In this document: positions 26,164 through 39,305 of the stretch, one piece after another
Layout of the letters: each line of letters begins with the position of its first letter
How positions within the stretch are numbered: the stretch's first letter is position 1
Assembly: GCA_031180805.1 (NCBI GenBank)
Contig: JAPSLL010000022.1
Location: 11,967-63,153, forward strand
Source: Bacillus sp. (in: firmicutes)
Lineage (GTDB): Bacteria > Bacillota > Bacilli > Bacillales > Bacillaceae
Length of the DNA stretch: 51,187 nt
Direction: 5' to 3'
Translations under genes and position numbers: made by a program
The notes under the pieces: generated by a model
Databases searched by the model: none
Told to the model about the DNA's origin: nothing
What the model saw: the letters and a program-made list of their open reading frames with translations, nothing else

Positions 26164-27201
26164 CTATTTCTTTGCAACGATCGTATCAACGAAAGGTTCA
26201 ACAGAGGAAATTGATACATCCTGATAATAATATTTTACAATGTCTTCGTAATTTTTCCCTTCCTTTGCCATCCCATTTGCTCCATATTGACTCATACCAA
26301 CACCATGACCATAGCCTTTAGTTGTAAAGATTAGGTTTTCACCACTTTGTTCTACCTCAAAATCATTGGAGGGTAGTCCAAGCTTTTCTCTTATATGTAC
26401 TCCTGTGAATTCCTGATCATCTATTTCGATTGTAGCTACTCGATTGCTTTCTGTAAGTTTTTTTTCTCCAATAATGTCCGTTTGTCTGTCCAATTGAATC
26501 CCAAGTGCCTTTTCTACTTCAGAAATCGTTACAACAACTTGGTCATTAAATTTGGGAGATTCTTTATCCCAAGGACTTGCAACACTTCGTAAATAAGGAT
26601 AGCTATGTTCCCAATAATCTTCTGAGTTTTCTGTATAGCCATTGCTTGTTGAATGAAAGGAAGGATCAATTGGTTTCCCTTCATATGTTAAGATTTGACC
26701 TTGTGTTGCATAAACCGCTTCCTGAATTTTAGTGATATTTGATTGATAATTGTCTCCCCACTGCTTGGCTAATTCAGCTTTATTTTTATAAACTTGATAG
26801 TTTTCGGGATTATCAGAGATGTCAGCATTTACGCGAAGTAATTCCTCATCTTTAGAGCTATCAGGCGCAACCATTTTATTAACTAAAAATGTTCTTGCTG
26901 CCAGCGCTTGAGCCTTTAATGCCTCTAATTCAAACGTTGCTGGCATTTCAGATGCAACAACACCTACAACATATTCCTCAAACGATACATTTTCAATTTC
27001 CTTTAAACTTGTCCTATACACTGAAACCTCAACTGCTTGATTTGCTGCTTCATTTGCCATTACATTGTTCTTATCAATTTTTAAATCTAATTCCTCATTA
27101 CCTTTATTCTCTGAAAACGAGACTACTAGTATTGACGGTATTAATAGAACTATAATAAAAGCTGAAAAGACGATCCATAATAATGGACTGATTTTAATCA
27201 T
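26164..27201 (-). CDS. spoIID: SpoIID-family lytic transglycosylase
   Basis: About 345 residues with one N-terminal membrane anchor (PLLWIVFSAFIIVLLIPSIL) and the SpoIID domain outside. The catalytic region VSFEEYVVGVVASEMPATFE, then LEALKAQALAARTF, carries the conserved Glu of ASEMP; the later YGHGVGMSQYGANGMAKEG and Cys-free middle SFHSTSNGYTENSEDYW are family signatures. SpoIID cuts denuded glycan strands made by SpoIIP during engulfment. ATG 27201 has GGAGGG five bases upstream. In B. subtilis spoIID follows murAA; here it stands alone, facing a sigma/SpoIIP-fusion pair. It may be the canonical gene moved, or a paralogue. Confidence 0.88.
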   Translation of the reverse strand: MIKISPLLWIVFSAFIIVLLIPSILVVSFSENKGNEELDLKIDKNNVMANEAANQAVEVSVYRTSLKEIENVSFEEYVVGVVASEMPATFELEALKAQALAARTFLVNKMVAPDSSKDEELLRVNADISDNPENYQVYKNKAELAKQWGDNYQSNITKIQEAVYATQGQILTYEGKPIDPSFHSTSNGYTENSEDYWEHSYPYLRSVASPWDKESPKFNDQVVVTISEVEKALGIQLDRQTDIIGEKKLTESNRVATIEIDDQEFTGVHIREKLGLPSNDFEVEQSGENLIFTTKGYGHGVGMSQYGANGMAKEGKNYEDIVKYYYQDVSISSVEPFVDTIVAKK

Positions 27202-27225
27202 TTTGCCCTCCAAGTGAATTTTCTT

Positions 27226-27258
27226 ATTATAGCCTATGTACTACCGCCTTGTTATATC
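27226..27258 (-). promoter_or_regulatory. Candidate sigma-E promoter of spoIID
   Basis: On the minus strand GATATAA (27252-27258) and CATAGGCT (27231-27238) are 13 bp apart, close to the sigma-E pattern (ATATT, then CATA-N3-T). A TATAAT at 27226-27231 offers a sigma-A alternative but lacks a clear -35. Spacing and match are moderate only. Confidence 0.4.
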
Positions 27259-27309
27259 ACCTTATTTTTCCAACTTATAGGAGGTTTTACTTCTTTTTTT
27301 ATGAGAAAC

Positions 27310-27335
27310 TGTAACTTTTTTCATTTTTATTCGAT
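27310..27335 (+). promoter_or_regulatory. Candidate ECF-type promoter
   Basis: TGTAAC (27310-27315), 16 bases of T-rich spacer and CGAT (27332-27335) fit the layout of Bacillus ECF promoters (TGAAAC-N16-CGTC) with two mismatches. It lies 38 bp before the sigma gene, where autoregulation would be expected. Confidence 0.45.
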
Positions 27336-27372
27336 TAATAACTGAACAGCTAAAACAAAAGGGGGAATACCA

Positions 27373-27915
27373 TTGTCAGACTCCAATAAATTAGTTGAAA
27401 TAATTGAGGAGGTATATGAACGGTATTATGGGGAGGTGTATAAATTTTTAATCTGTTACACAGGCAACAGAAACGATGCAGAAGATTTAACCCAGGAAGT
27501 TTTTATGAGAGTCATAAAGTCCTTCTCTACATTCAATAATGAAAGTAAATTAAAAACGTGGATACTTTCTATAGCTAAACATGTCGCAATTGACCATATG
27601 CGAAGAAGGAAGTTCCTCTCTATTTTTAAAGAAAGCTTTTTTCATCAGCTCCCTTCAAGCAAAAAGACACCTTATGAAATTCTTCAATTCAACGAAAATA
27701 AAAAACAATTATATGATGCTATTTTTGCACTAAAGACAAAATATAAGGCAGTGATTATCCTGAGAGGAATAAATGAATACTCCATTAAAGAAACTGCTGA
27801 AATATTAGATTGTTCTGAATCAAAGGTAAAGGTTGATTACCACCGAGGATTAATTGCACTGAAAAAGATATTACATATTAAGAATGAGGAGGAGGTATTT
27901 AATAATGCGAATTGA
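27373..27915 (+). CDS. ECF-type RNA polymerase sigma factor
   Basis: A 180-residue sigma-70 protein with only regions 2 and 4. Region 2: VYERYYGEVYKFLICYTGNR, then NDAEDLTQEVFMRVIKSF and LKTWILSIAKHVAIDHMRRR. Region 4: LYDAIFALKTKYKAVIILRG, then YSIKETAEILDCSESKVKVD, the DNA-binding helix-turn-helix for the -35 element. A TTG start at 27373 has AAAGGGGG seven bases upstream. The last 11 bases overlap the start of the next gene, whose product has an anti-sigma-like N-terminus, so the two are translationally coupled like sigma/anti-sigma pairs. A likely ECF promoter lies upstream. It does not match a named Bacillus sigma closely enough to name. Confidence 0.88.
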   Translation: MSDSNKLVEIIEEVYERYYGEVYKFLICYTGNRNDAEDLTQEVFMRVIKSFSTFNNESKLKTWILSIAKHVAIDHMRRRKFLSIFKESFFHQLPSSKKTPYEILQFNENKKQLYDAIFALKTKYKAVIILRGINEYSIKETAEILDCSESKVKVDYHRGLIALKKILHIKNEEEVFNNAN

Positions 27916-28837
27916 AGATGAAATTTTCGAATTAATTAGAAACTCTCCAGAATTAAAGCCTCGTGAACACTTTATACAACAAACAAAAATGAAGTTAATG
28001 AAAGAAGCAAAAAAATATAATCAAAGGCAAAAGCTTTTCAAAACATCTTTTTATTGTTCTAGTATCGCAGCAACTCTTGCAATCGTTATCTGGATTTCCT
28101 TTTTCGGAGGAATAACTTATATTTCAGATTCGGTTAGTCAAGTCATGGCATCCTTTCAAAAGAATACTACACATCAAGTATCTGAGAATCATGTAAATAC
28201 GCCAATTTCATCTAAAAATCCTAACGTTTTCATTTATCATACACATAATACTGAATCCTTTACAACATTAGCAAGTGACAAAAAAAGTTTTAGCGACAGC
28301 AAAGAAAATATTACTTTAGTTGGCAAAAAATTAAATGAGTCATTAAGGGATAAAGAGATTTATTCACTCCACAATAAAATAGATATTCAAAAAATACTTA
28401 AAAATGAAGGATTAAAATTTGAAGATTCCTATAAAGTATCACGCGAAATACTTAAAGGGGTTCTCGAAAAAAACAAAGATATCAAATTAGTACTAGATAT
28501 TCATAAGGACAGTAGCAAACGTGAAGAGTCAACTATAAAAATCAATGGAAAAAGTGTTTCAAGAATTTCTTTTGTCGTTTCAGCTATAAGTAGTAAGTAT
28601 GAGGAAAATAGAAAAATAGCAGATCTTTTTCATCATAAACTTCAAGAAAAGTATCCTGGACTTTCAAGAGGAGTTCTTGTCGGAGGAAAAGCAACTAAAA
28701 ACAACTATAACCAAGACTTATTCAACAATTCACTTCTAATAGAAATTGGCGGTCCAGAAAATACCTTGGAAGAGGAATATAGAAGTGTTGAAATTCTATC
28801 AGAGGTCATTGTAGACGTTTTAGATGAGATTGAGTAA
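27905..28837 (+). CDS. Anti-sigma-like membrane protein fused to a SpoIIP amidase domain
   Basis: A 310-residue protein. Residues 1-45 are a charged cytoplasmic helix pair (MRIEDEIFELIRNSPELKPR, FIQQTKMKLMKEAKKYNQ) of the kind that binds ECF sigma factors; residues 47-72 are one membrane helix; residues 105-310 are a complete SpoIIP-type zinc amidase. Zinc and catalytic candidates are His112 or His114 and Glu117 (IYHTHNTESF), His200 (LDIHKDS) and Glu280 (LIEIGGPENT); LEEKYPGLSRGV-like LQEKYPGLSRGVLVGG is also kept. SpoIIP removes stem peptides from peptidoglycan. ATG 27905 has GAGGAGGAGG and overlaps the sigma gene. I infer a membrane switch in which the outer amidase domain senses or cuts the wall. 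That the N-terminus is an anti-sigma domain rests on operon position and shape, not on a motif. Confidence 0.82.
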   Translation: MRIEDEIFELIRNSPELKPREHFIQQTKMKLMKEAKKYNQRQKLFKTSFYCSSIAATLAIVIWISFFGGITYISDSVSQVMASFQKNTTHQVSENHVNTPISSKNPNVFIYHTHNTESFTTLASDKKSFSDSKENITLVGKKLNESLRDKEIYSLHNKIDIQKILKNEGLKFEDSYKVSREILKGVLEKNKDIKLVLDIHKDSSKREESTIKINGKSVSRISFVVSAISSKYEENRKIADLFHHKLQEKYPGLSRGVLVGGKATKNNYNQDLFNNSLLIEIGGPENTLEEEYRSVEILSEVIVDVLDEIE

Positions 28838-29097: not shown

Positions 29098-29442
29098 TTG
29101 AAAAAACTCAACGGTATATTCTTTACTATGCTAATTGTTGTCGTGATTTCCGGTTGTTCATTGTTAGAAAAGTCAGCCGAGATGGAAGGTTATATTTTAG
29201 AGGTCGAAACAGACCATATATTATTTACTGAAAACACATCTCAAGAAGAATACAATAAAATAAAAGATTTATCTTTTGAAGAACTAACCTCTCTTAAACC
29301 AGGTCCTAGTCTCGTTTATTTAACGTATGATAAAACTAGCGATTTGCATAAAGGAGATAAAGTTGCTGTGACAATCTCAGGAGATATCCAAGCTTCCTAC
29401 CCCGGAGAAGCAAAAGCACGAAATATTAAAGTAATAGAATAA
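29098..29442 (+). CDS. DUF3221 lipoprotein
   Basis: A 114-residue exported lipoprotein. The signal peptide (KKLNGIFFTMLIVVVISGCS) ends in a lipobox with Cys20, so the mature protein is lipid-anchored outside the membrane. The body (EMEGYILEVETDHILFTENT, then HKGDKVAVTISGDIQASYPG) matches DUF3221, a beta-rich domain of unknown role common in bacilli. The start is TTG 29098 with AGGTGTGGTG upstream. It stands alone, 260 bp after the SpoIIP fusion; the gap holds a weak inverted repeat (GAAGCC and GGCTTC) but no gene. Confidence 0.82.
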   Translation: MKKLNGIFFTMLIVVVISGCSLLEKSAEMEGYILEVETDHILFTENTSQEEYNKIKDLSFEELTSLKPGPSLVYLTYDKTSDLHKGDKVAVTISGDIQASYPGEAKARNIKVIE

Positions 29443-37143: not shown

Positions 37144-37602
37144 CTATCTACTAGCTTTTTCCTTCTTATTATCAAACGCAACATCAATAAAGAAAAGCAA
37201 TATAGCCGCAACAATTTCTGTTAATAAAGAAATTGTAATACTATTCATAAATTCGTCTACCACATGTAATGTAAACAAAGTAAATGTGCTATCAATGGCC
37301 ATTCGTGTTATAAATAATGTATATTTATTTGATATGTATTGAGATGTCAACTTGATAAATGCAATAGAAAATAAGTCTACTATAAAACCAACAAAAAAGA
37401 AGACTAACACAAAACCTAGCAGAGAATAAGCAGATGTATACTGCACTCCAAACAATTGAAAAAGCCCAGCCATTCCAAAATAAAAAATTCCGATTACAAA
37501 AGCAATAGATAAGACAACAAGAAGTGTTAATGATACAATAACTACTATCTTCTCAAAGAATTTCAAATCACGAAATGAATCATTATCTTTATTTTCTTTC
37601 AT
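37144..37602 (-). CDS. YrvL-family membrane protein
   Basis: A 152-residue protein with four likely membrane segments: IVVIVSLTLLVVLSIAFVIG, LGFVLVFFFVGFIVDLFSIA, then two in the C-terminal half (SITISLLTEIVAAILLFFID). The FFxGFxxDLFSIAFIK and FxTRMAIDSTFTLFTLHVVDE blocks match the YrvL family, named for a B. subtilis membrane regulator linked to an alternative sigma factor. No partner sigma gene is adjacent here. ATG 37602 has AAAAGGA upstream at rather long spacing. It is a single-gene unit. Confidence 0.75.
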   Translation of the reverse strand: MKENKDNDSFRDLKFFEKIVVIVSLTLLVVLSIAFVIGIFYFGMAGLFQLFGVQYTSAYSLLGFVLVFFFVGFIVDLFSIAFIKLTSQYISNKYTLFITRMAIDSTFTLFTLHVVDEFMNSITISLLTEIVAAILLFFIDVAFDNKKEKASR

Positions 37603-37689
37603 TTTTAAAACAATTCCTTTTAGTTAACATTTCACATTTGTTAACTTTCATTTTAATACTTCTGCTTTTACTAAAACTTCATAGTATTT

Positions 37690-38400
37690 CTAAGAAAGAT
37701 AACGTCGTCGAATAATAGTAAGAAAAAATCCCACTAACAAACTAGAATATATTACTATCCAACCAAACTGTAAATAAACATGTAAGGGAATGAAGTGAAC
37801 TGTGTCACTCATTTCCATAATCTCCAATGATAAGTGCAACGGGGGAAGCAACCAAATTAAGCCTTTTATTTTAAGTATATATGCTTTTATTATGGCTATA
37901 ACAAAAGTACCGATCAAAACTGTTAAAACCCCCCACCATGTATTTCCCCTATTTCTAGTTAATTCTCTTACAAAAAAGACTGTTAATGAAATAGATAACA
38001 GAGATACACAAAAGTGATTTAATAAACCCATGATTATGTGAAGGAGACGGAGTTCATTACCAAAAGCCCCAAATACAACTGGATACATAACAGAAAGAAC
38101 ACTTAATCCTAATCCAAAAAGAAGACAATTTAGAAATAGTGATATATGATATCTTTCTATACTTTTAGCATGAAAGAGTGTAATTTGTGATTGTCTCGGG
38201 TCTTCTGAATGAAAAATAGTGATTGTTATCCATCCCATCATAAAGAATAAAATTAATGATGTAAAAGAATAACTATCCATTATAGGATTAGGTCTATATG
38301 TATAGTTTATAATCAACATCATTAAATAAAGGGATACTGGTGGAACATACTTGAAATTACGGATGTACGTCATTAAATGGTACTGTATTAAGCTTTTCAT
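37690..38400 (-). CDS. ABC transporter permease, second system
   Basis: A 236-residue membrane protein with about six segments (VSLYLMMLIINYTY, FTSLILFFMMGWITITIFHS, YHISLFLNCLLFGLGLSVLS, GVLTVLIGTFVIAIIKAYIL, QFGWIVIYSSLLVGFFLTII). It has no named motif but follows its ATPase by 26 bp on the same strand, the usual pairing. The HSEDPRQSQITLFHAKS loop resembles permeases of bacteriocin or antibiotic exporters. It probably forms a transporter with the 38427-39305 product. The substrate is unknown. Confidence 0.75.
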   Translation of the reverse strand: MKSLIQYHLMTYIRNFKYVPPVSLYLMMLIINYTYRPNPIMDSYSFTSLILFFMMGWITITIFHSEDPRQSQITLFHAKSIERYHISLFLNCLLFGLGLSVLSVMYPVVFGAFGNELRLLHIIMGLLNHFCVSLLSISLTVFFVRELTRNRGNTWWGVLTVLIGTFVIAIIKAYILKIKGLIWLLPPLHLSLEIMEMSDTVHFIPLHVYLQFGWIVIYSSLLVGFFLTIIRRRYLS

Positions 38401-38426
38401 GCTCTTACCAATCCTCCAGTGGACGA

Positions 38427-39305
38427 TTACTGCCTATTAAATTCGTTTACAAAGCTATTTACTGGTGCCAAGAATTCTATCGATGCACCTTTCTTAAGAA
38501 GTATATTTAGAATTGAAGAAGTATATGGACGAGTAAAAGTAACTTCCATCTGTTTGCTATCTGATTCTTTATATCTTTCCTTTATTGATATAAAGAAATG
38601 ATGTATATCATCTATTGATTCGTTTGAGGAAATAGTAAACACCATATTATATAGCATTTTAGAATTAGTCGTTTTACTAACTTCTTTTACTTGTTGATTT
38701 TTCACCAATAAAACCCTATCTACTAAATTCTCATTTTCCAAGAGTTTCGTTTCATGACATGTAAAAACGATACTAATTCCGCTTTCCTTCAGCTTTAATA
38801 AAATTCCCCCTAGATCTTTTTGAGATTTTACATCCAGTCCAGTCAAAGGCTCATCCATTATCAGTAAATTAGCATCTCCTACCAATGCTTGCATAATAAG
38901 AACCTTTTGCTTCATTCCTTTTGAAAAATCCTTTATTTTGCTATCTGCTTTATCTTTAAGCTGAAAAAGCTCAATTAATTCATTTACCTTTTTCTTAACA
39001 TATTCCTTTGGCAGTTTTTGAATTCCCCCCATATAAGTAAGGTACTCTATTGGAGAGAATGGTAGATTAGTTGGAAGAATCTCAGGGACAAAACCAATAT
39101 GAAGTGGATTAACGTGCTTCCTGACCTGTCCAAAATCTATCTTTGCCATCCCGCTAATTAATTTCAAAAGAGTACTTTTACCGGAACCATTTTTCCCAAC
39201 AATTGCAACTACTTCATTATTGAAAAGAGAGAATGAGATTGAATCCAATATTATATGATTGTTATATTTTTTCGTTACATTTCTAATTTCAATTATCTTA
39301 TTCAA
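38427..39305 (-). CDS. ABC transporter ATP-binding protein, second system
   Basis: A 292-residue ATPase. Walker A is AIVGKNGSGKSTLLKLISGM, the signature is DFSKGMKQKVLIMQAL, Walker B is LLIMDEPLTGLDV, and the switch His is in IVFTCHETKLLENE. A C-terminal extension of 80 residues follows. It is of the CcmA/NatA type that pairs with ABC-2 permeases, here the gene directly downstream. Unlike the first system it has no regulator beside it. A small hydrophobic peptide gene lies upstream at 39465-39554. The gap 39306-39464 shows no other feature. Confidence 0.87.
   Translation of the reverse strand: MNKIIEIRNVTKKYNNHIILDSISFSLFNNEVVAIVGKNGSGKSTLLKLISGMAKIDFGQVRKHVNPLHIGFVPEILPTNLPFSPIEYLTYMGGIQKLPKEYVKKKVNELIELFQLKDKADSKIKDFSKGMKQKVLIMQALVGDANLLIMDEPLTGLDVKSQKDLGGILLKLKESGISIVFTCHETKLLENENLVDRVLLVKNQQVKEVSKTTNSKMLYNMVFTISSNESIDDIHHFFISIKERYKESDSKQMEVTFTRPYTSSILNILLKKGASIEFLAPVNSFVNEFNRQ

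Follow-up and report, generated by a model that had tools for sequence, protein, structure and literature searches.

The window analysed here, a stretch of 51,187 nucleotides on contig JAPSLL010000022.1 of a Bacillus sp. assembly (GCA_031180805.1), contains a gene for an extracytoplasmic function (ECF) sigma factor that overlaps a gene coding for a membrane-anchored SpoIIP domain. Based on sequence comparisons, we suggest that the two genes encode a cognate pair of ECF sigma factor and membrane anti-sigma factor; the latter would touch peptidoglycan with its SpoIIP-type outer domain and release the sigma factor upon a wall-derived trigger, and we assign a probability of roughly 0.78 to this explanation as a whole. 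The fusion protein is very probably a membrane inhibitor of the adjacent sigma factor. The first-pass annotation had proposed an anti-sigma factor that senses or cuts the wall; the anti-sigma role is well supported by genomics because the pairing is conserved, the N-terminal module is shared with unrelated outer domains, the predicted topology fits and an ECF-type promoter motif precedes the pair, and we infer the sensing or cutting of the wall. The module consists of the following features.

27310 to 27335, plus strand: ECF-type promoter motif TGTAAC-N16-CGAT before the sigma gene, the sole strict match in the window, with none in 100 shuffles
27373 to 27915, plus strand: ECF sigma factor gene, 180 amino acids, TTG start; the nearest named family is SigX, far under the cut-off
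27905 to 28837, plus strand: predicted membrane anti-sigma factor with a SpoIIP domain, 310 amino acids
27905 to 28045, plus strand: putative N-terminal anti-sigma module, residues 1-47, cytoplasmic by the charge rule and resembling the N-termini of other, uncharacterized sigma-paired proteins
28049 to 28105, plus strand: membrane helix, about residues 49-67, predicted from hydropathy and charge
28163 to 28810, plus strand: SpoIIP (Amidase_3-like) domain, residues 87-302, with H114, H200, E280 and E290 present

Gene pair and its conservation

Both open reading frames (ORFs) and their domains were verified, and so was the overlap of 11 bases (27905-27915) that had been reported for them. The fusion gene most likely starts at the ATG at 27905, which is preceded by AGGAGGAGG within the sigma gene; the AGGAGG upstream of the fusion gene sits in the last sigma codons, and the sigma C-terminus, EEVFNNAN, is similar across 11 aligned sigma proteins. 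The earlier description of the fusion protein, in which a short N-terminal part is followed by a single membrane helix and a SpoIIP domain, agrees with both hydropathy and the PF07454 match, and the amidase His and Glu residues that it described as kept (H114, E117, H200, E280 and E290) are all found in the window copy.

When we surveyed 80 genomes of the family, the pair was present in relatives, most of whose fusions share 33-53% identity with that of the window, and since the pair is kept at this distance, the pairing goes beyond chance. Other full-length fusions occur in G061 (93% identical), G059 (two copies), G054, G053, G064, G071, G049 and G046, while the fusion gene of G060 ends early and the C-terminal part alone was found in G070. 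An overlapping upstream sigma gene is present in 11 copies, the window included. A profile of the N-terminal part (A5, described below) matches 10 of the 80 genomes, namely 8 of 21 genomes of the own genus, 2 of 7 of a second, none of 44 of a third and none of the remaining 8. Between the window and its sister genome G061, the ratio of nonsynonymous to synonymous changes (dN/dS) is about 0.15 for the sigma gene, about 0.12 for residues 1-47 (five changes only) and about 0.12 for the amidase part. Were the fusion a decayed spare spoIIP that had drifted beside an unrelated sigma gene, early-ending and partial copies such as those of G060 and G070 would be in line with it; however, the pairing across many families, the low dN/dS of the sigma gene and the amidase part, and the single deep SpoIIP group described below refute decay for the window, and we give this idea next to no credence.

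N-terminal module and its varied outer domains

The window fusion begins with a basic N-terminal part of about 47 residues. The net charge is +4 before the helix and -1 after it, so the N-terminus is predicted to lie inside the cell. A profile of residues 1-73 alone (A2; 11 sequences picked by SpoIIP similarity) was compared with 397 genomes of the order, and matches were obtained in 48 of them at E<=0.01. Among the 30 loci returned, three of which belong to the profile itself, a sigma gene lies directly upstream in 28. At the level of the class, the wider profile A5 (29 sequences) matched 19 of 398 genomes (E<=1e-6), with a sigma gene in all 25 new loci, and the search of 398 genomes of the phylum matched two, both known already. 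At most 14 first-look candidates were scored per genome in the order, class and phylum searches, so that absences there are soft. For 26 A2 match rows no locus had been returned; of these, two copies of G415 and the one of G436 were retrieved subsequently, and the G436 copy has a sigma gene. The other 23 rows, all weak (E 6.6e-4 to 0.0098), were left out of the reading. A scan of named genomes gave at least 80 loci, and the 24 from Bacillota (L115-L138) were read.

Taken over the 55 loci read with the two N-terminal profiles (30 from A2 and 25 new ones), a sigma gene is directly upstream in 53. At L097, the first exception, a remnant of sigma region 4 precedes the gene on a short contig; the second, L098, comes from a set of rearranged copies in G415, an intact member of which, L196, does have the sigma gene. 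The fusion has the position of a membrane anti-sigma factor, coded directly downstream of the sigma gene and overlapping or adjoining it, and by charge and hydropathy it also has the predicted topology of one, with the N-terminus inside, one helix and an outer domain in 29 of 29 SpoIIP fusions.

The outer part, in turn, varies. In the 30 A2 loci it is SpoIIP in 15, SpoIID in one, IseA-like (PF16800) in three and other or unnamed in 11; in the 25 A5 loci it is SpoIIP in two, and a YcdB-like domain (PF16244) was found in all 7 scanned of the remaining 23. SpoIID is carried by G415 and by Halalkalibacter akibai (NZ_BAUV01000085), where full SpoIID outer domains stand beside ECF sigma genes (L196, 6930-8096, and L121, 2499-3656, respectively), and these two are each other's nearest in both trees. 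In profile-profile comparisons the module matched the N-termini of YcdB-type proteins (6e-20), of a mixed unnamed set (7e-12) and of the IseA type (2e-9, two identical rows); these values are not independent, as the sets were partly gathered with the same profiles and the starts were set by rule. To carry different outer domains beside a sigma gene is as expected of an anti-sigma module whose sensors can be swapped, and the N-terminal part appears to be one.

Three side observations belong to these proteins. The IseA-like endopeptidase-inhibitor domain occurs on a related N-terminal module in the sigma-linked membrane proteins of L106, L110, L113 and L124. In another family of the class, the module lies next to ECF sigma genes at L235-L257, the 23 loci of which the 7 scanned have the YcdB-like domain mentioned above. 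G415 also carries rearranged extra copies and fragments (L195).

Sigma factor and promoter motif

The sigma factor contains regions 2 and 4 only in about 180 residues, as expected of the ECF type: region 2 (PF04542, 1.3e-18) and region 4_2 (PF08281, 9.4e-12) both score above the Pfam cut-offs, and TIGR02937 gives 108.9 bits. It is not a SigX by the NCBIfam models, which give 139.8 bits against a cut-off of 260 and 131.2 against 239. When 58 selected sigma proteins were placed on a tree, the window type fell within a branch of 34 rows (support 93/87) that holds 26 of the 28 SpoIIP-paired rows, both SpoIID-paired rows and six others. The two paralogous pairs of G059 take separate places in the sigma and SpoIIP trees with their partners matching, which is as expected of cognate pairs.

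The motif TGTAAC-N16/17-CGAT/A precedes the sigma gene in all 11 family copies. A relaxed motif was found at 47 of 59 related sigma loci, compared with a mean of 0.92 and a maximum of 4 in 200 shuffles and none on the reverse strand; in two of these 47 the match is located at or behind the start taken, and the duplicates L115, L116, L126 and L213 as well as L097 and L098, where no sigma gene was detected, were left out of the count. Among SpoIIP-paired sigma loci the relaxed motif is present in 25 of 27, and both SpoIID-paired loci have it. When nine genomes were searched with the strict motif TGTAACNTTTN{12,13}CGAW, 18 matches were obtained (backward control 9), of which 10 are sigma promoters. 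Each genome has 1 to 4 matches, the sigma promoter is the sole recurring one, and five genomes have no other. Six of the eight remaining matches lie inside ORFs of at least 100 amino acids, one has only a 78-residue ORF behind it, and the last, in G061, is 94 bases before a gene that by eye resembles a lipoprotein gene. A looser motif in six genomes gave 26 matches against 41 in the backward control and, by eye, no recurring downstream ORF besides the sigma genes. There is thus no sign of a wider regulon from the strict motif in nine genomes or the looser one in six, although weaker targets may escape such searches.

Outer SpoIIP domain and its active site

The window domain matches PF07454 over residues 87-302 (E=6e-63, profile positions 62-268 of 269) and retains the catalytic histidines, and it is thus a SpoIIP amidase domain. 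When we built a tree of 64 SpoIIP domains, taken from the fetched loci and not a census, 29 sigma-linked domains were separated from 35 unlinked ones by a branch with 100/99 support. Unlinked means without a related sigma gene on the fetched stretch; the sigma remnant locus L097 and L133 are counted among the 29, and identical proteins and the truncated copies L013 and L016 were dropped. The window copy is excluded from the sporulation SpoIIPs by this branch and is not their orthologue. The genome has one further SpoIIP, of the sporulation type, on contig C44, which answers the question, left by the first-pass annotation, of a second spoIIP.

The two groups differ at residue 280, which is Glu in 35 of 35 unlinked domains, while the 29 linked domains have Glu in 15, Asn in 11, Gln in two and Asp in one. 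The tree demands at least seven changes at this position and does not tell gain from loss. The window copy retains E280. This residue aligns with an Amidase_3 glutamate that is Glu in 17 of 17 Amidase_3 domains, and the glutamate at that position is catalytic in Amidase_3; the sporulation SpoIIP on C44 is matched by the Amidase_3 model itself (3e-5, just below the cut-off). Since E280 is kept in all unlinked domains and in about half of the linked ones, the pattern is more in keeping with a sensor than with an enzyme whose activity is required. Judged by this one measure, many relatives seem impaired in catalysis, while the window copy looks competent, and the change of E280 in 14 of 29 relatives (one of them mild, to Asp) favors sensing over cutting. 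With all its residues kept, the window copy may both sense and cut.

It should be considered here that the SpoIIP protein might be an effector instead of an inhibitor, so that the sigma factor is controlled otherwise and makes a membrane-bound wall amidase. The strict motif recurs only at the sigma operon in the nine genomes, and the output of the loop would then be mainly the sigma factor and SpoIIP; the catalytic histidines are also kept in 28 of 29 linked domains. However, the same N-terminal part stands beside a sigma gene on IseA-like, YcdB-like, SpoIID and unnamed domains as well, E280 is changed in nearly half of the linked SpoIIPs, and Neobacillus niacini L118 has lost H114, E117 and H200 altogether. 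We consider a pure effector improbable. A dual role, in which the anti-sigma factor is also the output enzyme and its own cutting of the wall, or its failure to cut, is the signal, making the release self-limiting, is a sub-case of our preferred explanation, and the odds of the two overlap. The window copy keeps all amidase residues with a low dN/dS of the domain, and the operon seems to be the sole recurring strict target, both of which speak for such a role. On the other hand, it would not be general if E280 is needed, and motif searches may miss weaker targets; on balance we regard the dual role as unlikely, though clearly less so than the pure effector.

Several observations weigh against an anti-sigma factor with a sensing amidase domain. 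First, no clear constraint is seen in the helix and linker when the window is compared with G061 (dN/dS 0.87, 8 changes). Second, two SpoIIP-paired loci, L111 and L133, sit on another sigma branch and lack the promoter motif, and L133 also lacks a match to the N-terminal profile. Third, the N-terminus has no match to any named anti-sigma family in Pfam or NCBIfam, and it is only weakly similar to the N-termini beside SigX (L136-L138, E 6e-4). Fourth, the equivalence of E280 with the Amidase_3 glutamate depends on a weak profile alignment (E 1e-4 and 9e-4, probability 56 and 23%). Finally, the residues named for the Clostridioides difficile enzyme are mostly kept. Its histidine pair H142/H222 is described as essential in PMC6221140, and the counterparts H114 and H200 are both kept in 28 of 29 linked domains. 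The catalytic glutamate given in PMC6934232 is E309 in the motif GgxxNxxxE; by alignment its counterpart in the window is E290, a residue that 28 of the 29 linked domains retain (Asp in one). We therefore rejected E280 as the residue called catalytic in SpoIIP papers and treat it as the Amidase_3 equivalent, and because E290 is kept, the argument from residue loss rests on E280.

No SpoIIP relative was found by sequence among the solved structures of the PDB: the profile search was empty, and the single-sequence search gave a designed repeat protein alone (9e-6, with no stretch passing by itself), the rest being at E >=0.2.

Further SpoIIP paralogs stand in tandem (326-337 and 369-410 amino acids) in five Metabacillus genomes (L037, L038, L041, L044, L045; L043), and the stretch fetched around them showed no related sigma gene. 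A 330-kb plasmid record of Metabacillus sp. B2-18 (NZ_CP088246) is likewise matched by a SpoIIP of the short type.

Proposed mechanism and related systems

We suggest the following course. The basic N-terminal part would hold the sigma factor in the cytoplasm, the single helix would span the membrane, and the SpoIIP-type domain outside would touch peptidoglycan, its presumed ligand. Once the wall begins or ceases to offer the right substrate, such as septal stem peptides or damaged wall, the anti-sigma factor would release the sigma factor, perhaps via proteolysis, and the freed sigma factor would transcribe its own operon from the TGTAAC-N16-CGAT promoter in a presumed autoregulatory loop. 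The window domain may still cut, while in the many relatives without E280 the domain probably binds only. This suggests that the fold of a wall-cutting enzyme has been reused as a cell-wall sensor. We also put forward, tentatively and at somewhat less than even odds, that SpoIIP and SpoIID have both been turned into wall receptors in Bacilli, interchangeable on one anti-sigma scaffold within a closed ECF loop, with many of them pure binders.

We place the module with the ECF sigma/membrane anti-sigma systems. It resembles SigX/RsiX of Bacillus in that SigX is its best named model, the genes overlap, a short N-terminus precedes the helix and the motif is of the TGTAAC type. In Heyndrickxia, the protein encoded next to a true SigX (L138) bears a Germane domain, which is associated with sporulation, at 37 bits (cut-off 23); we take the L136-L138 proteins to be RsiX from their position. 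It differs from that system in the low SigX score, the other sigma branch, the SpoIIP outer domain and the weak N-terminal similarity noted above. RsiV, the anti-sigma factor of SigV, binds lysozyme and shows that the outer domain of an ECF anti-sigma factor can sense a wall-related signal; its outer domain is unrelated to SpoIIP, and it binds an attacker's enzyme, whereas the window fusion itself carries an enzyme domain. Sigma-I is not an ECF sigma factor, and the N-terminus of RsgI is another domain. The mechanism proposed here is nevertheless like that of SigI/RsgI, without membership of that family: in cellulolytic clostridia, as described in PMC3413522, RsgI is a membrane anti-sigma factor whose outer part is a binding module, or a glycoside hydrolase in C. 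thermocellum, and differs between paralogs. The polymer there is plant polysaccharide, while here it would be the cell's own wall. With the SpoIIP amidase of engulfment the fusion shares the domain and the histidines; it differs from it in lying on the other side of the 100/99 branch, in its anti-sigma-like N-terminus, in the sigma linkage and in the frequent change of E280.

The first-pass annotation knew of no described system with this build, and this agrees with the open-access papers searched: among the matches listed, no title or abstract start described an anti-sigma domain made of SpoIIP or SpoIID. On plasmids of Priestia megaterium the pair already has an annotation, as a sigma factor and a 'stage II sporulation protein P', in seven records (H2-H8, out of 32 that match). 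The laboratory strain P. megaterium ATCC 14581 has the module on plasmid pBMV_2 (NZ_CP009921, genes 37239-38685), with Asn at the E280 site. The module suggests that some 'spoIIP' genes, plasmid-borne ones included, bear a sporulation annotation although their role is to regulate transcription, and it bears on how Gram-positive cells monitor their own peptidoglycan. Two engulfment enzymes appear as outer domains of an anti-sigma-like module in several Bacilli families, the kept or lost active-site glutamate amounts to a built-in natural experiment, and the module would provide a tractable reader of wall state.

The neighbouring spoIID gene

A spoIID gene lies opposite the pair, with a promoter-like match of its own.

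26164 to 27201, minus strand: spoIID paralog (SpoIID2), 345 amino acids, a neighbor probably outside the module
27231 to 27259, minus strand: SigE/SigK-like promoter match ATA-N16-CATA before spoIID, weak, the same in the sister genome

As noted earlier from the sequence, this is a true SpoIID (TIGR02870 388.8 bits, cut-off 234.75; GVVxxEMP motif present), divergent and head to head with the sigma gene at a distance of 171 bases. The SpoIID calls rest on Pfam and NCBIfam, as our own SpoIID profile was contaminated by a neighbor gene (it matched a 434-residue ORF in L212), and one distant protein of 755 amino acids was left out of the comparison. The window SpoIID is a paralog that groups with copies in G061, G060, G069 and G070 at 99/95.

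The further claim that spoIID belongs to the unit did not hold, and we rejected it on adjacency, paralogy and the missing ECF motif. A sigma/SpoIIP/spoIID unit working in engulfment would be in keeping with the head-to-head arrangement, with the successive action of SpoIID and SpoIIP (PMC6221140) and with the SpoIID-type anti-sigma-like proteins in the same sigma branch. However, spoIID adjoins the pair in 2 of 11 copies, those of the window and the sister species, G060 being unreadable since its contig ends 192 bases upstream. The paralog belongs to the genus and lies away from the module elsewhere, with no related sigma gene on the stretches fetched around the other copies, two of whose contigs end within 1 kb upstream. 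No ECF-type motif precedes the window spoIID, which has the SigE/SigK-like match instead; this pattern matched 3 of 6 SpoIID2-type and 5 of 5 sporulation-type rows examined. We consider such an engulfment unit very improbable.

Whether the genome has a second spoIID had also been raised. None was found in it at E<=1e-20, and two weaker SpoIID/LytB-domain genes exist, while the sister G061 holds a second spoIID, of the sporulation type. Because the window genome lacks the corresponding region at the start of contig C33, the apparent lack may be an assembly gap, and our first idea that the window spoIID is the only one of its genome was dropped.

SpoIID2 genes lie in scattered genomic places in Metabacillus (window 26164-27201, L054, L055, L056 and L075, the last with weaker support, 94/93). 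Downstream of the module, the window has a DUF3221 gene at 29098-29442, lipoprotein-like by eye.

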